Origin: a virus
Strand: one strand, 5' to 3'
Length of the DNA: 20,468 nucleotides
IMG/VR virus record: IMGVR_UViG_3300005337_000054
Span: 1-20,468 of that record
The position numbers were made by a program, and so were the translations under genes. The notes under the pieces were generated by a model. The model worked only from the letters and a program-made list of their open reading frames with translations. It had not been told where the DNA came from and ran no database searches. Shown in pieces: positions 4,525 to 19,346 of this stretch; position 1 is the first letter of the stretch, and every line of letters starts with the position of its first letter.

Positions 4525-7288
4525 TTCCGCCTACCTCGACCTGCGGAAGCACGGCCAGAATGGTTGCTGGAAGAGGATGCGGCTGACGGAGCAGAACGCG
4601 GCCACTGTCGTTCCATGAAGTCACCAAGTGGCCGCGTTGCACTTTGGTCTGCAACGGCCACGGAGAATTGAAGTCGAAATCCGTTGGCTGCTCGCCGAGG
4701 TCGTGGAGATTGTCTTCATCAGGCCCAGCCTGAAGACCGAGCGTCTTCTGCACGACCACCGAAACCTTCGGAATGACTTTGGCGTTGTCGCGGATCGACT
4801 CCTGCGCGCCGAATATCGTGACGTTCAGGGTTTCCAGATCGCTCACATAGGGCAGGCCGATATGAACGACACCAGCAGGAATGCCGAGCGTGATCTGCCC
4901 GTTTTCCACCCGCTGCGCGTCTTCTGGTGAGCCGTCAGCAAGGATTGCGACTTCCTCGCCTTCTAGGTGCTCAAGGCCGCTCATGACGTTGTGCGCGAAC
5001 GTCCACGTAGCGGTTGCGGCGTTCTGAAGGTGCGCCGGAACGGGCGACTGCAATACTGCCGTGACCACGGTCGAGCTGGTGTAGCCAGTGATCAGCGCCC
5101 TGACCTGTCCGGCCTCGTAGAGCAGTTCGTCTTCATCGTCGTACTGCGCTTCGTATGGGAACTGGATCATGTCGCCGATATCGGACGTGCCAGTGAAGAT
5201 CCCAGCACTTGCGGTGAGCGTCACTTCCTGCCCGCCGTCGTAGCTCGCCCCGCTGATCGTGACCGTCGTTGAGGTCGTGTTGCGGCCGTCGTAGGTCAGG
5301 CCGCTATCGACAAAGAACGAATCCAGAATGCTGGCCTGATCCCTGATCGCCATGCGCTCCAGGTATCGAACGGTCGATCCGTTGATGCTCCGGCGAACCA
5401 CGAAATAAGGCGTATCGACCCCATCCTCCGGAATCACGCAAACGCGCTCGAAGAACCCCTCCGTGTCGTGGCGGTGCCATGCAACCACTTCCTGCTCGCG
5501 CAGATAGGTCAGGCCGATGAGCGCGCCATCACTGCGAACCATCCACAGGATGCCGTGCGGCTCCTTGGCGTAGTCCCAATCAACAATGGTGTTGCCATCC
5601 TCGAACATATGACGGGCGAGGACGGTCAGCTCCGGGCCGCTGTACTTGTCTCCGGTGTTGCCGTATTGAAGCTCGCGGACTTTCGTCGCTCCACGCTGGG
5701 CGAACAGGATGCTGTCTCCGGTCTGGATCGCACGCAGGAACTCCGCCCCGTCGAACGACTGCGGGTCGTAACCGATTGTCTGCGGCGTCCAGACTTCACC
5801 ACGCTTCGGGCTTGCCCACGACGAGGAAGAGGTGAGCGCAATCAGCTGATCCGCCGGCACGATCTCTTGAATGGCGTTGATCTGCCGCGCGTTCAGGCGC
5901 TGCGTGATCGCATCAGCAGGGAGCAGCGGCGAGGACTTGCCGAAGTTGTGATAGTCGCCAGTCTTGCTGGCCCATTCCGTCTGTGGCTGGCCGATGGAAT
6001 TGGCGAATACCAGGCGGTCCGCGAAGTACGTGCAGAGTGCCGGATACCCCTGATCCTCGCTCCACGCGCCGAGAGCCCAGACAGTTGTCGTGGTCGATAC
6101 CACCACGGATGGCAGCTGCTCGATCACCGTGGCCGTGGCAGTTGTTCCGCCGCCGCCAATTGCGGTGATCCGCGCAATACCGAATAGGTTGCTCTGAAAG
6201 GCCCAACTGACGCCGGCACGAGTTGCGGCTGTACCGTTGTAGAGGCCGAGATCACCATCCAACTCTGTGCCGTCGTCGTGATTCGGCGGGATGGTTCCCG
6301 TGTAGGTCCCGCTCGCCGGAGCCGCAGCATTCCCGGCTGCCACATAAACTTTGCCGTTAAATGTGCGGATCTCGCCGTCCGGATCTACAGTCGAGGCCGC
6401 AATGTGCTTTCCGGGCTCCCACGGCTTGTATGAGGACAGATCCTCTGCGGTCAGGCGAATCAGTGCACCGACATGGTCGGCTGTGAATACGGGCGCGGAT
6501 GCCGTGATCGTAACGACACCCGTTGCAGCATTGGCCTGCATGGTCGTTGCGGTCACGTTGTCGTCGAGGAACGGGCCTCCGGTGAAATCGTCGATCTCAT
6601 CGTAGGAGAATGTGCTCGCGCTCAGGCGCGTAATCTCCGCCTGCGGATACGTGTAGTGCGTGAGCGTCAGAACGTCCGCGCTCTGCGTGTATCGCAAATC
6701 CGCCAGCTCATCGCTCTGATACGGCGTGGTCAGCTCGTAGGGAACCGTCGCAACACCGCCGCTCACGTAAGCGCCGGTATACGGGTTTGGATGAAAGATG
6801 GCCCAAAACTTGTTGGCCGCCGGAACCGCCTGAATCGTCCATGTCCCGTTAGCAATCGCGAAATCGTAAGTAGCAACGACGGCCGAGACCGTGACCAGCT
6901 GCCCGGCAGTGAAGCCATGTGCGCCAGAAGTGGTGAACTCCAACACGTAGTACGGAGCCGAGAAGGTCTCCGTGATGTTGGTGATCGTCGCTGTTGCGGC
7001 ATTCTGGACGAATGCGCCATCGTGGAACACACGCGCGTTCTCTTCCTGAAACACCAGCATGTAGGCGATGTCTGTGCTGTAGATAAACGGAATCAGCGCG
7101 GCCAGGCTGTCAGGATTCAGCGCATATACGAACTCAAGTCCCGCCCGATTACTCGCCCCGCCAGTCGGCCGGATGAAGAAGTTGCGGCACGTCGTCACGG
7201 CGGCAGCGAACATCTGCAAGTCCGCGCGCTCGCTCAAGCTGGGACTGATCTCCCCTCGCCCGAAGCTGACTTGTGAGAGCTTTGGCAT
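4517..7288 (-). CDS. Tail tubular protein B / nozzle protein (T7 gp12-like)
   Basis: A 923-aa protein starting at the ATG at 7288, which shares its A with the stop of the gp11-like gene (TGATG). A GTG at 7300 would add four residues but needs a longer overlap. The N-terminus is diagnostic for podovirus nozzle proteins: MPKLSQVSFGRGEISPSLSE, then CRNFFIRPTGGASNRAGLEF at about residues 34-53. The rest is long, Thr/Ala/Val-rich beta structure, with elements such as FADRLVFANS followed by QPQTEWASKTGDYHNFG at about residues 420-450, a well-known stretch of this family, and LTSSSSWASPKRGEVW soon after. In the virion it is expected to form the hexameric nozzle at the tip of the short tail. It lies between the gp11-like gene and the gp13-like gene, as in T7-type phages. 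The size is somewhat greater than the roughly 800 residues of T7 gp12. Confidence 0.9.
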   Translation of the reverse strand: MPKLSQVSFGRGEISPSLSERADLQMFAAAVTTCRNFFIRPTGGASNRAGLEFVYALNPDSLAALIPFIYSTDIAYMLVFQEENARVFHDGAFVQNAATATITNITETFSAPYYVLEFTTSGAHGFTAGQLVTVSAVVATYDFAIANGTWTIQAVPAANKFWAIFHPNPYTGAYVSGGVATVPYELTTPYQSDELADLRYTQSADVLTLTHYTYPQAEITRLSASTFSYDEIDDFTGGPFLDDNVTATTMQANAATGVVTITASAPVFTADHVGALIRLTAEDLSSYKPWEPGKHIAASTVDPDGEIRTFNGKVYVAAGNAAAPASGTYTGTIPPNHDDGTELDGDLGLYNGTAATRAGVSWAFQSNLFGIARITAIGGGGTTATATVIEQLPSVVVSTTTTVWALGAWSEDQGYPALCTYFADRLVFANSIGQPQTEWASKTGDYHNFGKSSPLLPADAITQRLNARQINAIQEIVPADQLIALTSSSSWASPKRGEVWTPQTIGYDPQSFDGAEFLRAIQTGDSILFAQRGATKVRELQYGNTGDKYSGPELTVLARHMFEDGNTIVDWDYAKEPHGILWMVRSDGALIGLTYLREQEVVAWHRHDTEGFFERVCVIPEDGVDTPYFVVRRSINGSTVRYLERMAIRDQASILDSFFVDSGLTYDGRNTTSTTVTISGASYDGGQEVTLTASAGIFTGTSDIGDMIQFPYEAQYDDEDELLYEAGQVRALITGYTSSTVVTAVLQSPVPAHLQNAATATWTFAHNVMSGLEHLEGEEVAILADGSPEDAQRVENGQITLGIPAGVVHIGLPYVSDLETLNVTIFGAQESIRDNAKVIPKVSVVVQKTLGLQAGPDEDNLHDLGEQPTDFDFNSPWPLQTKVQRGHLVTSWNDSGRVLLRQPHPLPATILAVLPQVEVGGNG

Positions 7289-7935
7289 CAGCGGCGACAC
7301 GCGATGGACTCAGGCTCGGCCTGAGCATCGTCCTTCTGTTCGTTCATCGCAGCGGCGGCGGCTTGAGACATCCATCCGATGTAGTTATCGCGCGCGGTAG
7401 TGATGAAATCAGCCTTGGCCTGCAATGGGCCGCCAGCCTCCATGGCCCAGCGCCATGACAGTACAGAACCGAAATCGATGTCCCACGCGCCGACATTGGT
7501 CACGTCGTGCGTGTAGAAGCCCCACGCGGTTGCGACATCGGTCAGTAGCACCTGAGACGTGCCGTCGGTCTTGAGCGCCTTCTGCCAGGGGATGCGTATC
7601 TGCTGGATCTCGCTCCAGTAGCACGGGTCATTGCACAGCGCCAAGCCACGCACGCGGCGCATGCCGGATTCATCCCCGACCGCGCGCATGTTCAGGCAGC
7701 CGTTTGGGTACTGGTACACGTAGGTCCAGCCCGGGAAGGTCTGGTCAGCGACTTCCGCCAAGGCTTCAGCCCACAGCGCGAATCCCCACGGAAACGCGCG
7801 CAGGACTTCCTGCCTGACTTGCACGTAGACGCGGTTCAGTGTCTTCGCTTCGACCGAGTTCTCCGACAATGACTGGATAGTCTTGCCGATGCCTAGGCGA
7901 CCAAGCGTGGTGTTGGCCCAGCTGGTGATGTCCAT
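7288..7935 (-). CDS. Tail tubular protein A / adaptor (T7 gp11 / P22 gp4-like)
   Basis: A 215-aa protein with the N-terminal pattern of the gp11/gp4-like head-completion adaptors: MDITSWANTTLGRLGIGKTI, a polar SLSENSVEAKTLNRVY (about 22-37), then VRQEVLRAFPWGFALWAEAL (about 40-59). The R-x-EVLR-x-xPW-x-FA motif is the family signature. The central part is aromatic, with YQYPNGCLNMR and an ACR-type C-terminus. The adaptor forms a dodecameric ring between portal and nozzle. The ATG at 7935 overlaps the preceding stop (TAATG) and the stop overlaps the nozzle start (TGATG), a tight adaptor-nozzle pair as in other T7-like phages. A longer reading in this frame upstream of 7935 would overlap the 67-aa gene and has the look of a shadow, so the internal ATG is preferred. 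Confidence 0.87.
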   Translation of the reverse strand: MDITSWANTTLGRLGIGKTIQSLSENSVEAKTLNRVYVQVRQEVLRAFPWGFALWAEALAEVADQTFPGWTYVYQYPNGCLNMRAVGDESGMRRVRGLALCNDPCYWSEIQQIRIPWQKALKTDGTSQVLLTDVATAWGFYTHDVTNVGAWDIDFGSVLSWRWAMEAGGPLQAKADFITTARDNYIGWMSQAAAAAMNEQKDDAQAEPESIACRR

Positions 7936-9426: not shown

Positions 9427-10443
9427 TCAATTCCCCATCATTCGTGCGTAGTGCGGCCAAGGTTTCCCGCCGCCACCGGCAGCTGGCGTGTACGTGATAA
9501 CGATCAGTCCGCCGGCACCCGCTCCGCCGGAACCTTGGGTGCCGTTCTGCGAATAGCCACCACCACCGCCACCGCCGCCGTAGCCGCCGCCCGCTCCGCC
9601 CGCTCCGCCGTTGTTCGTGGCGTTGGTAGAGCCGCCGCCACCACCACCGCCACCGCCGGGCCCGTGGGTCGCGTCGAATGCGATGCCGGCGCCACCGGCA
9701 CCGCCTGCCGCGCTGGCGGCATCACCGGGATCACCAGAACCACCACCGCCACCACCAGACCCATGCGAGCCGGCTCCGCCAGCGGTAGGCGTCGTGCCGC
9801 CAGCCCCTGCGGTTCCCCCCGCGGTTGAGTCTTGTGCTGCGCCACCTGCGGAACCGTTGTAGCTGGCAGGCGCAATGACACCTGCCGATCCGTTGTCAGC
9901 TGCGCCGCCTCCAGTTCCGCCATACCCTGAATTGGTAGGATCTTGCGCGCCACCATCCTTGCCATTTCCGTGCGGTCCGGCGGCACCACCACCGCCCGTT
10001 CCGCCAGCCCCGAGTCCAGCCGGATCTATACCGGAGCCACCGCTGTTCTTCGTGGTGCCGACGCCAGAGGCCGCAGCGCCGCCTGCGCCAGGCGTTCCGT
10101 TGCTCTGTCCACCGCCGCCGCCCTTAGCTCCAACACTCGACGCGCCAAGGGATGCGCCGTTGAACCACGTATCTCCACCAGCACTGCCGTTCGGGCTTCC
10201 GTTGGTGCCGTTTGCACCACCCGTGCCGACCTGAAAAGCAGCGGTACCGCTCGGGGTAAGCGTGAGGTTGGTGATCTTCGAATACGCGCCGCCACCACCA
10301 CCGGCTCCCTGCGATACGTTGGTGGCGCCAGAAGACCCGCCGCCGCCAGCAGCGATCACCTCGATGGTGTTATCTGAATTGTTCCAGTCAGCGGGAACGG
10401 TCCACGGACTGGTATCCGCAGTGGTGAGGTAGATCGTGGTCAT
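9427..10443 (-). CDS. Glycine-rich adhesin / fibre-tip-like protein
   Basis: A 338-aa protein of which I count about 120 residues (roughly a third) as glycine. The first 25 residues are ordinary (MTTIYLTTADTSPWTVPADW), then IEVIAAGGGGSSG opens the repetitive part, with GAGGGGGAYSKITNLTLTPS at about residues 46-65 and FQVGTGG soon after. This opening is typical of the glycine-rich domain found in phage fibres. From about 75 to 320 it is an irregular array of Gly runs separated by short Ala/Ser/Asn/Thr/Asp spacers, ending in GLIVITYTPA and a short polar tail. Such sequences are known, in T-even-type gp38 adhesins, to form a sandwich of polyglycine-II helices displaying specificity loops. A similar architecture here is inference. 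The start overlaps the stop of the upstream beta-rich gene by four bases (ATGA), and the fibre gene follows by one base, suggesting one adhesion cassette. Confidence 0.8.
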   Translation of the reverse strand: MTTIYLTTADTSPWTVPADWNNSDNTIEVIAAGGGGSSGATNVSQGAGGGGGAYSKITNLTLTPSGTAAFQVGTGGANGTNGSPNGSAGGDTWFNGASLGASSVGAKGGGGGQSNGTPGAGGAAASGVGTTKNSGGSGIDPAGLGAGGTGGGGAAGPHGNGKDGGAQDPTNSGYGGTGGGAADNGSAGVIAPASYNGSAGGAAQDSTAGGTAGAGGTTPTAGGAGSHGSGGGGGGSGDPGDAASAAGGAGGAGIAFDATHGPGGGGGGGGGSTNATNNGGAGGAGGGYGGGGGGGGYSQNGTQGSGGAGAGGLIVITYTPAAGGGGKPWPHYARMMGN

Positions 10444-12856: not shown

Positions 12857-13864
12857 TTAGATGCCAGACTCGTTGTTGAGGAGCGCATCGCTGCGGCGGA
12901 TCGCGATACCGTCGAACATCGGCACGCGAATGTTGGCGCCGTTCGCCCGGGTGATCTGCTCGATTGACAGCGTGCTGTTCACCGTCTTGTTCATGATCTG
13001 CCGGCGGATGAACCCGCGAATCGTGCGGTTGGCGTAGAACACCGGCCGGCCCGCGTTGATGTTCGGCACCAGGTCGATGGCCTGCGACATCAGGTCGATC
13101 AGATCGGGGCCGGTGGCCGCGTTCTTCAGCAGGTCTTCGGCATCGATGTTGATCCGGACGACGTAGCGCCAGTCCTTGACGTGCAGGCCGCAGTCCCAGC
13201 GGAAGTGCGTGCGGTAGCCCTCGTAGTAGCCCGTGGAAGGGCTGCCGATGGTGACCTGACCCTTGTCGGTGGCCTGAATGCCGGCCTTCGAGCCCTTCGG
13301 GTAGATGCCGTGGACGTTGTCGCCCCACACCACAAGCCAGATGGACGCGTTGTCCGTGCTGTCCGGAGTCGCGGCAGAGGTGATGATGTTGCCGCCGTTC
13401 TCCGCGGCCTGATCGTTGAAGCGCGGCGAAAACCCGGTGAACTCTTCAGGAGTCGTGGCTTCGTTGCCGTACCACAGCGTGTCGGAGAGCTTCTGCGAAA
13501 ACGCCTCGATCTTCGCACGGTCTTCCGTAGCACGGAACGCCGAAGCGTTGCCGTTCAGGTCAGCGAGGGCTTTGTCGATCTCGCTGTAGTCCTCCATCAT
13601 GCCCGTGGTGTCGGTGATGACGGCCGTGGTGCTCTTGGTCGGCTGGGTGTAGCCGTAGAGCTTGCGGAACGTGATCGCCGGAATGCCGGTGCGGATGATG
13701 CCGCGATGGCCGGTCAGAAGGTTGCCCTCCTTCCACACCATGTCGTCGAGCACTTCGTTCGTCTCGTTCAGGATCTCCGCGATGGAAGTTTCGACACTTC
13801 CCTGCGGGTTCAGGCGCCGCGCAACGTCAAGCAGCGTCGGGTGGATTGCGTCGAGAGTGGACAT
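12857..13864 (-). CDS. Major capsid protein (BPP-1 Bbp17-like, HK97-type fold)
   Basis: A 335-aa protein with a strong Shine-Dalgarno site. It starts MSTLDAIHPTLLDVARRLNP, with EILNETNEVLDDMVWKEGNL at about residues 30-49 and HRGIIRTGIPAITFRKLYGY at about 53-72. This helix-plus-strand opening ('ETN-x-VLDDM-x-W-x-EGN ... TFR-x-x-YG') is characteristic of the BPP-1 / podovirus GP7-type capsid family. Later parts include YGNEATTPEEFTGFSPRFND (about 132-151), WLVVWGDNVHGIYPKGSKAG (about 176-195), YVVRINIDAEDL and NKTVNSTLSIEQITRANGAN. These match the same family. BPP-1's capsid protein has an HK97-like fold with altered chain topology, so this one may too. It is preceded by the scaffold gene and followed by the cement gene. 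No delta-domain or protease was seen within it, consistent with a separate scaffold. Confidence 0.92.
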   Translation of the reverse strand: MSTLDAIHPTLLDVARRLNPQGSVETSIAEILNETNEVLDDMVWKEGNLLTGHRGIIRTGIPAITFRKLYGYTQPTKSTTAVITDTTGMMEDYSEIDKALADLNGNASAFRATEDRAKIEAFSQKLSDTLWYGNEATTPEEFTGFSPRFNDQAAENGGNIITSAATPDSTDNASIWLVVWGDNVHGIYPKGSKAGIQATDKGQVTIGSPSTGYYEGYRTHFRWDCGLHVKDWRYVVRINIDAEDLLKNAATGPDLIDLMSQAIDLVPNINAGRPVFYANRTIRGFIRRQIMNKTVNSTLSIEQITRANGANIRVPMFDGIAIRRSDALLNNESGI

Positions 13865-13870
13865 CTACAT

Positions 13871-13876
13871 CTCCTT
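13871..13876 (-). promoter_or_regulatory. Shine-Dalgarno site of the major capsid gene
   Basis: The minus strand reads AAGGAG, six bases before the ATG at 13864 and overlapping the scaffold stop codon by one base. This is among the best consensus ribosome-binding sites in the window, in line with the high expression expected of a capsid gene. Confidence 0.85.
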
Positions 13877-14538
13877 CAATTCGTCGGGGACGCGGTGTAG
13901 AGGCTTTCCAGCCCCTTGTGCTGCGCGCCATTGGGAAGCCCGCCATTCGGCGGCGTGTCTTCGCTGACCATCTTTCCCACCGCGAGGAATGCCTTCAGGA
14001 ACTCGGGGTGGTTGCCCAGCCCGGTTTCATCGAGCAGTGCCTTGGCTGCCGGACTGAACACACGCGCCATGCCCTTCTGTGCAGTGGCGAGGTTCGCGTC
14101 GTGCTGCGCGCCCCATTCGGTGCGGATCGCCGCAAGGTTGTCCTTGGCTCGCTGAGCCATGAACGCCTTGAAGTCCTCTTCACGCTTGGTTTCGTCGGCC
14201 TTGAACAGCTCGGCAGTGGCCTTTGCATGGGCCTCCACAAGCTTGTTCGCGCCGTCCTGAGTCATGCCGAGTTCACGCAGCACCGGAGCGACCGCATCGA
14301 CAAGCACTGGATTCAGAGCAATGCCTTCGGGCAGCTTCAGGGCCGTGAAGTCGTACTTCTCGGGGATGACGGGCTTGGTGGGTTCCGCGACCTTCGCCGG
14401 ATCGGCGACAGGAGCGGCGGGGTTCGCAGTCGGGTCAGCAACAGGCGTTGCGGGGGGATCGGCTACCGGCGAAGCAGCAGGAGATGGTGTTGGATCTGCA
14501 ACGGGGTCAGCCACAACGGTCTCACGAAGTGCCTGCAA
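13876..14538 (-). CDS. Probable capsid scaffolding protein
   Basis: Located directly upstream of the major capsid gene. Residues 1-60 are a Pro/Ala/Val/Asp-rich, disordered-looking segment with five VADP copies. From about residue 60 (EKYDFTALKLPEGIALNPVL, about 60-79) the protein becomes a regular alpha-helical scaffold: ELGMTQDGANKLVEAHAKAT, DETKREEDFKAFMAQRAKDN, then IRTEWGAQHD (about residues 143-152), FSPAAKALLDETGLGNHPEF and AFLAVGKMVSEDTPPNGG. The pattern 'Y-x-F-x-x-P-x-G ... LGLTQ-x-x-A-x-x-LV ... W-x-x-x-x-x-x-D' is common among phage scaffold proteins. No in-frame ATG is present near the start. The farthest start is the TTG at 14538, and a GTG at 14514 (V9) is an alternative. Neither has a good Shine-Dalgarno. 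An in-frame TAG lies seven codons upstream of the TTG, which limits the extent. Confidence 0.8.
   Translation of the reverse strand: MQALRETVVADPVADPTPSPAASPVADPPATPVADPTANPAAPVADPAKVAEPTKPVIPEKYDFTALKLPEGIALNPVLVDAVAPVLRELGMTQDGANKLVEAHAKATAELFKADETKREEDFKAFMAQRAKDNLAAIRTEWGAQHDANLATAQKGMARVFSPAAKALLDETGLGNHPEFLKAFLAVGKMVSEDTPPNGGLPNGAQHKGLESLYTASPTN
14398..14514 (-). repeat. Five VADP-containing repeats in the scaffold N-terminus
   Basis: Codons 9-47 of the scaffold reading contain VADP at residues 9-12, 13-16, 25-28, 33-36 and 44-47, with Pro/Thr/Ala spacers of unequal length. The region looks unstructured. It could be a flexible linker or, if translation starts at the GTG for residue 9, the very N-terminus. 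Confidence 0.7.
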
Positions 14539-14547
14539 GTGCAGGCA
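14530..14547. repeat. 18-bp inverted repeat overlapping the scaffold start
   Basis: TGCCTGCA, then AG, then TGCAGGCA on the plus strand: two perfect 8-nt arms with a 2-bp centre. It can also form a 7-bp stem with a 4-nt loop in RNA. It spans the TTG at 14538 and sits in the 27-nt gap after the Phd-like gene. No U-run follows, so it is not an intrinsic terminator. It may be an operator or an RNA hairpin affecting scaffold translation. Confidence 0.6.
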
Positions 14548-14565
14548 GTCGCGAAACTACGCGGC

Positions 14566-14757
14566 TTATGAGCGCATCGGCGTAAGTGTGTACACACCTC
14601 GACGCAGCAACAGTAGCTCGCGGTAGTCCTCGACAGAGATCAATACGGCCGCCGGCTCGCCGTGTTTGAGCAGCACCGCAGGATGCGAGCGAGCGCTGGC
14701 TGCAATCTCAGCCAGTTGCCGGCGAAACTCTCGCGTCTTGAGGCGCACTTCGCTCAC
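14566..14757 (-). CDS. Phd/YefM-type antitoxin-like protein inside the head gene cluster
   Basis: A 63-aa protein if started at the GTG at 14757, which overlaps the upstream stop as GTGA and has GGGAGG about ten bases upstream. An ATG at 14775 would add six residues. The sequence has the Phd/YefM N-domain layout: a first strand EVRLKTREFRRQLAEIAASA (residues 3-22), where a helix 'REFRRQLAEI' follows the 'VRLKT' strand, then VLLKHGEPAAVLISVEDYRE (28-47). The 'xxHGEPAAVLIS-x-EDY-x-xLL' motif is the family hallmark. Only about 16 residues follow this domain, ending TLTPMRS, shorter than the toxin-neutralising tails of typical 70-90 aa members. The next gene is scaffold, so there is no adjacent RelE/ParE/Doc-like toxin. 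It sits between a Bbp19-like gene and scaffold, an unusual location for an antitoxin. It may be a decoy antitoxin, a DNA-binding repressor or an acquired accessory gene. Confidence 0.82.
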   Translation of the reverse strand: MSEVRLKTREFRRQLAEIAASARSHPAVLLKHGEPAAVLISVEDYRELLLLRRGVYTLTPMRS

Positions 14758-15077
14758 TTCTGCTGCGCCTCCCATGTCTCAACCATCATCTGCGGGATCA
14801 CCAGCGGGTCCGCCGCTTCAATCTCCGCCCACATCACGCGCGCCACGTCCTGCATGCCGATGTTCAGCGACTGCTGGCTGCCGTTCGGGTTCGCGGCAGA
14901 GCGCAATGGAAAGCCGCACGTTTCATTCCAGTGCCGCCACACGTAGCGCCTGAACTCCGGCAGCTTAAGCAGCGTCACGAGGTCAGAACGTTGCAGCTCG
15001 GCCGCGTTCTTGGCGTTGCGCTTGCGGTCCTTGACCTGCGTTTCGTCGGCGGCGTTGGGAATTGGCTTGTCGGTCAT
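14754..15077 (-). CDS. Bbp19-like phage protein of the head module
   Basis: A 107-aa protein. Its N-terminal third (residues 1-30) is charged and polar (KDRKRNAKNAAELQRSD). The remainder follows the Bbp19-type pattern: SDLVTLLKLPEFRRYVWRHW (31-50), then ETCGFPLRSAANPNGSQQSL (52-71), then NIGMQDVARVMWAEIEAADP (72-91) and LVIPQMMVETWEA. The 'L-x-x-PE-FRR-x-x-WR', 'CG-x-x-x-S', 'N-x-G-x-x-x-x-A-x-x-x-x-x-EI' and 'MM-x-E' residues are the ones I recall from this family, named for a Bordetella phage BPP-1 gene. Its biochemical function is not known to me. The start overlaps the portal stop (ATGA, 15077-15074) and its stop overlaps the Phd-like start (GTGA). It is found with portal and scaffold genes in related podoviruses, supporting a head-assembly link. 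Confidence 0.8.
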   Translation of the reverse strand: MTDKPIPNAADETQVKDRKRNAKNAAELQRSDLVTLLKLPEFRRYVWRHWNETCGFPLRSAANPNGSQQSLNIGMQDVARVMWAEIEAADPLVIPQMMVETWEAQQK

Positions 15078-16792
15078 GCGGCACTCGCAACAGCATCCAG
15101 CGCGCTACCAGTGCCCAATTGCGTCTCGCTCGCCGCCTTGGCTGCCTGCGCCATGTCCTTGAGCGGTGCAGCTGCGGCCATCTGCTGCTGCTGGGCCTGC
15201 TGTGCGGCGCGATCCTTCTGGATCTGCTCGACATCGTCGTCACTGCGGATCACGGATGGCGGAACACCCAGCGCCAGACCCATTTCGTCAATGGACTGCT
15301 CCGCATCGACCTTGTCCCACGCTGTGACCGCGGAGCCGCTGTCGGCCTGATACTTGGCGACCATGCCCACGTAGCCCATGAAGCGCTCGATGGTGTTGCC
15401 AGTGATCGCCTTGAACGCCTGAGCGAGCGTGCCGCGCATCTCGATCTTGATGTCCAGATTCGCCAGCTCGGGGGGCGGCGGCGGGAATCTGCCCTGCCGC
15501 ATGCCGACGTAGAATGTACGGTCGATGAACTGCTTGGCGAACATGGACACGTTGTACAGAACAGGCCCAAGTCCCAGGATTTGCTCCTGCCGGCGGGCGT
15601 CGATCTCCGGCACGGACGCATTGCGAGGGTCGGCCAGCGTGATGGCGTAGAACAGGTCGTAGAACATCGCACGCTGGATCTGCCGGCGGGAGTCCGCGAT
15701 GTCCGCCGCGACCGCTGGAATGCCCTGCGCGGCAATGATATAGGCGGGCTGGAACTTCGGTGCCGAACCATTCGGCGTGAAGCCTGAGTACGTGATGTCG
15801 CCAGAAATCAGCGACGACGGCTGATTCTTCAGCGCAGGATCGGCAACCATTGGAGGATCGACCCACTTGTCGGTAGCCTTGGCCTTCTGCTTCGTCTGCA
15901 CTTGGAGGGCCTTGGACATGCCAAGCCCGTCCATGGCACAGCTTGAGCCGTAGGGATCGGTGATCTCTGTGCGCTCCCAATGCAGGGTCGCAACGGGATT
16001 GTCCTCAAAGCCTGAAAGCCGCAGGGAGTTGTCGTCGTTGCCCTTGGCCTCGAAGTAGTTGGACGACCAGCGCATGTTGCGGTTGTCGTAGGCGCCGTAC
16101 TTGCGTCCCTCGTTGGGCTCCACCGCGTGCAGAACGCTGTTCAGCTGCTCGCCGGTATTATTACGCACGGCGGTCCTGACCGAATCGCTCACCCTCAACT
16201 CGCCGAAGTCGTTGACCATGTTGCGCGCCGACATCTGGTACTCGCAGTACATCGTGTCGATCACGCCTTCAGAATTGCAGGCGAGGTAGTAACTGCCCAC
16301 GGGCTTGGGAGTAAATGTCACGACCTTCGTAGGGTGTTCGGGCATGAACACCGGCGATGTGCCATATACCCCGGCATCGGTGTACACACTGGGAAGCACC
16401 GAATACAGGTTGGAGCGCTCGAAGATGTCGCGAAGGATGTTCTCGACCGCGTACAGCCACTGGCTGACAGCAGGAAACTCCATCATCTCAGGGTCTGGGG
16501 TGACCAGCTTGAACCACGGCATAGCCGGGTTCGTGGCTCCCGCGTGCATGCCGGCCCCGAGCGTGCGGGCGCAGAATCGCGGTTCAGGATCTACCAGCTT
16601 CTGGTTGCGCTTGCTGCCTCGATTGCTCTGCTGGTCCTTGTCGAGCCACCGTCCACGACGTGGGGTGAACCAGTCCTGCAACTCGCGCCAGTGGTCGTCC
16701 CACGAATCTCGAGCGGACTTCATATCCGCGAGCCTTCGCTTCGTGCGCCGATTGGCGGACTCAGCCTGCACAGCTGACGCGACGGCGCTCAT
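15074..16792 (-). CDS. Portal (head-to-tail connector) protein, T7-like type
   Basis: A 572-aa protein of the T7-type connector family. Diagnostic stretches: RRLADMKSARDSWDDHWREL (about 19-38) and DWFTPRRGRWLDK, where 'W-x-x-LQDWF-x-PRRGR' is the family N-terminal mark, then CARTLGAGMHAGATNPAMPW (about 74-93), where 'GAGMHAGATNP-x-MPWF' is another mark. After that come VYTDAGVYGTSPVFMPEHP, GSYYLACNSEGVIDTMYCEY, and a mid-late element KALQVQTKQKAKATDKWVDP. The final about 50 residues are Gln/Ala-rich (IQKDRAAQQAQQQQMAAAA), the low-complexity tail seen in related connectors. The dodecameric ring sits at one capsid vertex and serves as the packaging channel. It lies downstream of the terminase large subunit and an unknown 131-aa gene and is joined to neighbours by ATGA overlaps on both sides. 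Length fits the usual 500-600 aa. Confidence 0.93.
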   Translation of the reverse strand: MSAVASAVQAESANRRTKRRLADMKSARDSWDDHWRELQDWFTPRRGRWLDKDQQSNRGSKRNQKLVDPEPRFCARTLGAGMHAGATNPAMPWFKLVTPDPEMMEFPAVSQWLYAVENILRDIFERSNLYSVLPSVYTDAGVYGTSPVFMPEHPTKVVTFTPKPVGSYYLACNSEGVIDTMYCEYQMSARNMVNDFGELRVSDSVRTAVRNNTGEQLNSVLHAVEPNEGRKYGAYDNRNMRWSSNYFEAKGNDDNSLRLSGFEDNPVATLHWERTEITDPYGSSCAMDGLGMSKALQVQTKQKAKATDKWVDPPMVADPALKNQPSSLISGDITYSGFTPNGSAPKFQPAYIIAAQGIPAVAADIADSRRQIQRAMFYDLFYAITLADPRNASVPEIDARRQEQILGLGPVLYNVSMFAKQFIDRTFYVGMRQGRFPPPPPELANLDIKIEMRGTLAQAFKAITGNTIERFMGYVGMVAKYQADSGSAVTAWDKVDAEQSIDEMGLALGVPPSVIRSDDDVEQIQKDRAAQQAQQQQMAAAAPLKDMAQAAKAASETQLGTGSALDAVASAA

Positions 16793-19115: not shown

Positions 19116-19346
19116 TCAGTGCGTTAGCCTTTCAGAGTCTGAAAGATTGCAGGCTGGTTCACTGACCGCATTCAGCAGCGCCAATAGCCTTTCACCGCCT
19201 GAATGGCCCGGCTCCTGGGTGAGGTTGTTGGCTAGGTTGTACAGCGTACCCACGGGAATGCTGGTGGCTCTGTGCAGCTGGGGATAGCTCATGCCCCGTT
19301 CCCTGAGCTGCGCCATCACAGCCGCCCAGTCGATGCGCCCGGTCAT
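19116..19346 (-). CDS. Small HTH (Xre/Cro-like) DNA-binding protein
   Basis: A 76-aa protein reading MTGRIDWAAVMAQLRERGMS followed by YPQLHRATSIPVGTLYNLAN. The first part is helix one, 'GMSYPQLHRATSIP' forms the second helix and turn, and 'VGTLYNLAN' the recognition helix. A later 'RLLALLNAV' element (about residues 53-61) completes a five-helix Cro-like fold. The C-terminal tail of about 15 residues is polar. The ATG overlaps the stop of a 33-aa gene (ATGA). Its location upstream of the terminase genes might point to a regulator of the late operon or to an additional packaging helper. The sequence alone does not decide between the two. Confidence 0.75.
   Translation of the reverse strand: MTGRIDWAAVMAQLRERGMSYPQLHRATSIPVGTLYNLANNLTQEPGHSGGERLLALLNAVSEPACNLSDSERLTH

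Follow-up and report, generated by a model that had tools for sequence, protein, structure and literature searches.

A toxin-free Phd/YefM-type protein and a phased TGTACA site as a candidate regulatory system of phage scaffold and capsid genes

What could an antitoxin-like gene without a toxin be doing inside the head-assembly cluster of a phage? Antitoxin-like phage genes that stand alone are commonly taken for decoys or remnants. The gene considered here lies on the minus strand of the window, that is, the whole stretch of 20,468 nucleotides that was analysed. An earlier note on this DNA placed a 63-aa protein with a Phd/YefM N-domain between a Bbp19-like gene and a scaffold gene, and proposed that it either keeps host toxin-antitoxin systems quiet during virion assembly or acts only as a DNA-binding regulator.

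The open reading frame (14757..14566, minus strand) and its place in the cluster are real. The Pfam family PF02604 matches it above the cut-off (E = 1.5e-8; 34.7 bits against 29.8) over profile positions 7–48 of 74, and matches were also obtained with TIGR01552 phd_fam of NCBIfam (29 bits, cut-off 20.8) and with PHROG 2268 'antitoxin' (1.2e-7). All of them are confined to the N-terminal two thirds of the protein, the DNA-binding/dimerisation domain. The GTG start codon shares bases with the TGA of the Bbp19-like open reading frame (14754..15077, minus) in the GTGA overlap noticed earlier; a GGAGG ribosome-binding site (14772-14768, minus) lies within the 3' end of the Bbp19-like gene, and an in-frame ATG is found at 14775. 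PADLOC gave no match for the ORF. Used as the sole query, the protein found no close homologue among viral contigs, the only homologue being a 'RelB-like antitoxin' of Gordonia phage Sidious (41.5% identical). The AlphaFold2 model (mean pLDDT 79) has a helix at residues 8–20, strands at 27–31 and 34–39, and a second helix at 42–52. The predicted fold is helix-strand-strand-helix; in a PDB comparison the nearest structures are the N-domains of RelB, YefM and Phd, among them one from a YefM-DNA complex, and the E-values are weak.

The gene is not peculiar to this phage. Six relatives with portal proteins about 60% identical (L185, L186, L197, L259, L261 and L265) emerged when the Bbp19-like protein, TerL and a portal alignment were used as queries; together with the window they form a small sample of seven phages, all known as metagenome contigs. 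Each of the seven has exactly one PF02604 match, five of them over the cut-off, and in each the Phd-like ORF occupies the junction of the Bbp19-like and scaffold genes, with its start overlapping the end of the former. The portal tree groups the six carriers whose portal gene is full-length in one clade with 100/100 support, and a single change of state accounts for the distribution of phd. PF02604 scans of about 100 contigs whose portal or capsid genes are related found phd in no virus record, and the only matches came from four bacterial genomes carrying related phage loci. These scans had at first suggested a lone insertion; this was ruled out once the true clade was found. The conserved position in all seven phages and the single portal clade indicate that phd is a stable part of the head cluster of this clade, and not the isolated insertion that the earlier note had allowed for. 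Head modules of the Epsilon15/BPP-1 type share the order of portal, Bbp19-like, scaffold and GP7-type capsid genes; in contrast to the clade, their sampled members are devoid of phd, and many have a Bbp19-like gene that lies directly against the scaffold gene or overlaps it.

No toxin accompanies the gene. Among the seven contigs, two of which are 47–48 kb long, no match was found to ParE/RelE (PF05016), YoeB (PF06769) or Fic/Doc (PF02661), in a search of these three profiles that gave matches in control genomes, had PIN/VapC outside its range and ran on contigs that may be incomplete. The description of the gene as an orphan holds for its contig as a whole, and neither an adjacent cognate toxin gene nor one elsewhere on the same element, as in type II toxin-antitoxin systems, was found. 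The C-terminus is indeed unusually short. After profile position 48 the seven phage proteins continue for 4–20 residues (15 in the window), and 11 bacterial members of the Phd family, picked up by the same scans, for 27–42, with no overlap between the ranges. The phage tails do not align and are not conserved, and the L185 protein stops directly after the N-domain. A frame error masking a longer tail was considered and rejected, as in the approximately 50 nt between phd and scaffold no frame continues an obvious tail. The proteins thus have the N-domain of the Phd/YefM family and not its C-terminal toxin-binding segment. Phage decoy antitoxins are known in principle, and the N-domain does belong to the right family for a protein that would neutralise host toxins of the RelE, YoeB or Doc type during virion assembly; however, the missing and unconserved toxin-binding tail argues against such a role, which we regard as highly improbable.

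The short tail and the absence of a toxin could also be the marks of a decaying relic, left by a toxin-antitoxin pair after loss of the toxin. The pattern of conservation speaks against decay. The open frame, the start overlap and the N-domain are kept in all seven phages despite protein identities to the window of only 18–44%, and all seven have the same arginine, R12, at the beginning of helix 1. Codon positions 1 and 2 are conserved above position 3 in pairs with L186, less clearly in the other pairs. Persistence at one place through a whole clade is not expected of a relic either, and this explanation appears very unlikely. The lowest identities, 18–22% in L259, L261 and L265, point to fast divergence or to replacement in place by another Phd type.

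The DNA between the end of phd and the scaffold gene offers a more specific clue. The scaffold-like gene (13876..14514, minus; PHROG 458, 6.9e-36) most likely starts with GTG at 14514 (MADPVADP...) and not with TTG at 14538; the start was revised because five relatives begin the scaffold with ATGGC(T/C)GA at the corresponding place. This leaves an untranslated leader of 51 nt from the phd stop to the scaffold start (14515..14565, minus), with a GTGAG motif resembling a ribosome site shortly before the start codon. Upstream of the leader, over the 3'-end codons of phd and 74 nt before the scaffold start, lies a perfect 12-bp palindrome, GTGTGTACACAC (14586-14597), with the core TGTACA. The operators of YefM and Axe have the same hexamer as their core (PMC7730913, PMC4803016), and we consider the palindrome a candidate operator.

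TGTACA precedes the scaffold gene in six of the seven carriers, forming symmetric palindromes with differing flanks in five. The sites of L186 (GTGTACAC, 72 nt from the scaffold start) and L197 (GTTGTACAAC, 80 nt) lie inside the phd reading frame, as in the window. Those of L261 (TTGTGTACACAA, 72 nt) and L265 (TGTACA without symmetry, 81 nt) are non-coding, and so are the two sites of L185, AATCTGTACAGATT and a second TGTACA 33 bp apart, the second being 75 nt from the scaffold start; here it is the non-symmetric one of the two that has the common spacing. L259 is without TGTACA and has CGTACT at the same spacing. The pattern was first noticed in four phages; of those examined later, L261 and L265 had the same spacing and L259 did not.

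Several comparisons, in which shared descent lowers the independence of the tests, set these sites apart from chance occurrences. The 1,272 bp of the interval between the end of phd and the scaffold contain seven TGTACA sites, where the frequency in the remaining DNA of these phages predicts 0.14. Among 106 non-redundant loci of Phd-less relatives, only two have TGTACA within -200..+30 of the scaffold (Fisher 7.6e-8 against six of seven carriers). The flanks of the interval sites are more symmetric than those of other TGTACA sites (Mann-Whitney p = 0.0025) and than random flanks (8e-5). The innermost flanking bases change together, giving three matched types (G..C, T..A and C..G), as expected of a DNA site with two-fold symmetry and not of a conserved peptide. 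Since the sites of the window, L186 and L197 fall within the phd frame, their conservation could be partly at the protein level (V/L-Y-T/N); that L185, L261 and L265 have their copies in non-coding DNA, and that the flanks are matched, speaks against such a cause. Just upstream of phd, no TGTACA occurs in the window. A copy of GTGTACAC at 16380, inside the portal gene, is symmetric over 8 bp only and was taken as chance or coding.

The spacing shows to which gene the site belongs. Its distance to the scaffold start is 72–81 nt in all six phages, whereas the distance to the phd stop varies from -37 to +236, and random placement in a Monte Carlo simulation equalled this phasing in 1 of 20,000 trials (about 5e-5). 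The constancy of the one distance and the variability of the other tie the site to the scaffold gene, and what looks like a C-terminal tail in the window protein is coding sequence that overlies the site. A decoy antitoxin would leave this phased site unexplained.

Recognition of TGTACA by the Phd-like protein itself is a prediction. Unrelated regulators use palindromes of the TGTACA type, and a host GntR-type regulator or another phage protein could read the site while the Phd-like protein plays a separate role. Against this stand the near confinement of the site to phd carriers and the identity of its core with the one published for the same family, and we judge this alternative unlikely. 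A further explanation is that the site is bound for a purpose other than transcription, as a packaging mark or as a tether of the genome to the scaffold. Its placement among terminase, portal and scaffold genes would suit such a purpose, as would the scarcity of strongly symmetric TGTACA sites elsewhere in the examined contigs; however, a role in gene expression accounts more readily for the constant distance from the scaffold start codon, and a non-transcriptional use of the site seems very doubtful.

The regulatory proposal of the earlier note is, by contrast, well supported by the sequence comparison, given the conserved N-domain and the phased TGTACA before the scaffold in six of seven carriers. 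We consider it reasonably likely that the gene encodes a toxin-free DNA-binding protein of the Phd/YefM type that regulates the scaffold and capsid genes through an operator attached to them; its product is probably a switch for capsid-building genes and not an antidote. Translation of phd, at the far end of a terminase-portal transcript, would be coupled to that of the Bbp19-like gene. The predicted binding site of a Phd-type dimer is the palindrome with the TGTACA core, some 75 nt before the scaffold start codon, from where the dimer would control the segment comprising the scaffold, the presumed regulated gene, and the next gene, encoding a major capsid protein of the GP7 family (12857..13864, minus; PF20911, 1.1e-115). 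The sign and timing of the regulation are conjectural; by analogy with YefM autorepression, the protein would most likely repress an internal promoter or stand as a roadblock in the way of read-through transcription. A promoter at the site is likewise a prediction, with the fixed spacing as its main support; no sigma-70-like promoter or terminator was found there.

In fold and operator core, the closest known systems are yefM-yoeB of Escherichia coli and axe-txe, whose antitoxins YefM and Axe share with the phage proteins the Phd/YefM N-domain fold and a palindromic operator with a TGTACA core (PMC7730913, PMC4803016). Unlike these, the phage clade has no toxin gene and no toxin-binding tail, and its operator is downstream of phd and phased to the scaffold. 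The YefM operator consists of two palindromes 12 bp apart at the promoter upstream of its own gene, while the phage clade shares the TGTACA-core palindrome, usually has one and lacks this paired upstream arrangement; the difference in number and position is a point against the regulatory explanation. Phd of phage P1 also is a phage-borne Phd N-domain protein; its operator binding is established and that of the clade is predicted. P1 Phd represses its own operon and has a partner, Doc, and a disordered Doc-binding tail (PMC4803016), both of which are absent from the clade. PfiA of the pfiAT system of Pf4 is phage-encoded too, with a similar DNA-binding fold; it affects phage production, and its DNA binding needs basic residues on helix 1 (PMC13048266). 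It works with the toxin PfiT, and without PfiT it does not bind its site, AATTC-N5-GAATT, which lies in its own promoter (PMC13048266). No clear precedent for head-gene regulation by an orphan phage Phd protein emerged from the literature covered, which left out most subscription papers.

The Phd/YefM domain of the clade is ordinary; what is unusual is the proposed system, in which a toxin-free regulator with a phased operator varies the Phd/YefM theme. There is perhaps an even chance that the clade turned this domain into a dedicated regulator of capsid assembly, losing the toxin and the tail and setting a TGTACA operator at a fixed distance before the scaffold, and thereby adjusting when, or in what amount, scaffold and capsid are made compared with terminase and portal. 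The comparative evidence points to a third fate for an orphan antitoxin gene, that of a structural-gene regulator with its own phased operator. If true, it would account for both the absent toxin and the absent tail, and it offers a concrete site and target gene. Other orphan phage antitoxin genes may merit checking for operators before neighbouring genes.

Several further features of the head cluster were observed. The leader contains an inverted repeat, TGCCTGCA-AG-TGCAGGCA (14530..14547); a conserved leader hairpin was considered, as leader folding looked striking in the window and L265 when compared with shuffled sequences, but was rejected because across the clade it is not unusually stable against other windows of the same DNA (combined p = 0.36). 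The capsid protein of the window (12857-13864) is 66–76% identical to those of phages without phd, whereas the portal (15074..16792, minus; PF12236, 9.8e-123), the gene on which the clade was defined, and the Bbp19-like and scaffold genes follow the phd clade; a recombination joint between the scaffold and capsid genes is likely, judging from these identities. In L265, a 70-codon ORF on the opposite strand (7236-7448, minus) between phd and scaffold has its start overlapping the TGTACA site; it has no match in Pfam, and its start at TGTACA would suit a divergent promoter region, if the ORF is a gene. L259 also has an opposite-strand ORF between phd and scaffold (about 5150-5400, minus). In many relatives (L089, L112, L131, L143, L154 and others) the stretch from portal to scaffold holds 1–3.4 kb of extra ORFs and is a variable place of insertion. 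Elsewhere in the window, positions 9427-10443 encode a long glycine-rich low-complexity protein, possibly of the tail or a fibre, and a small ORF adjoining the small terminase gene (19116-19346) has a weak match (5e-4) to PHROG 6223, a family of phage transcriptional repressors.
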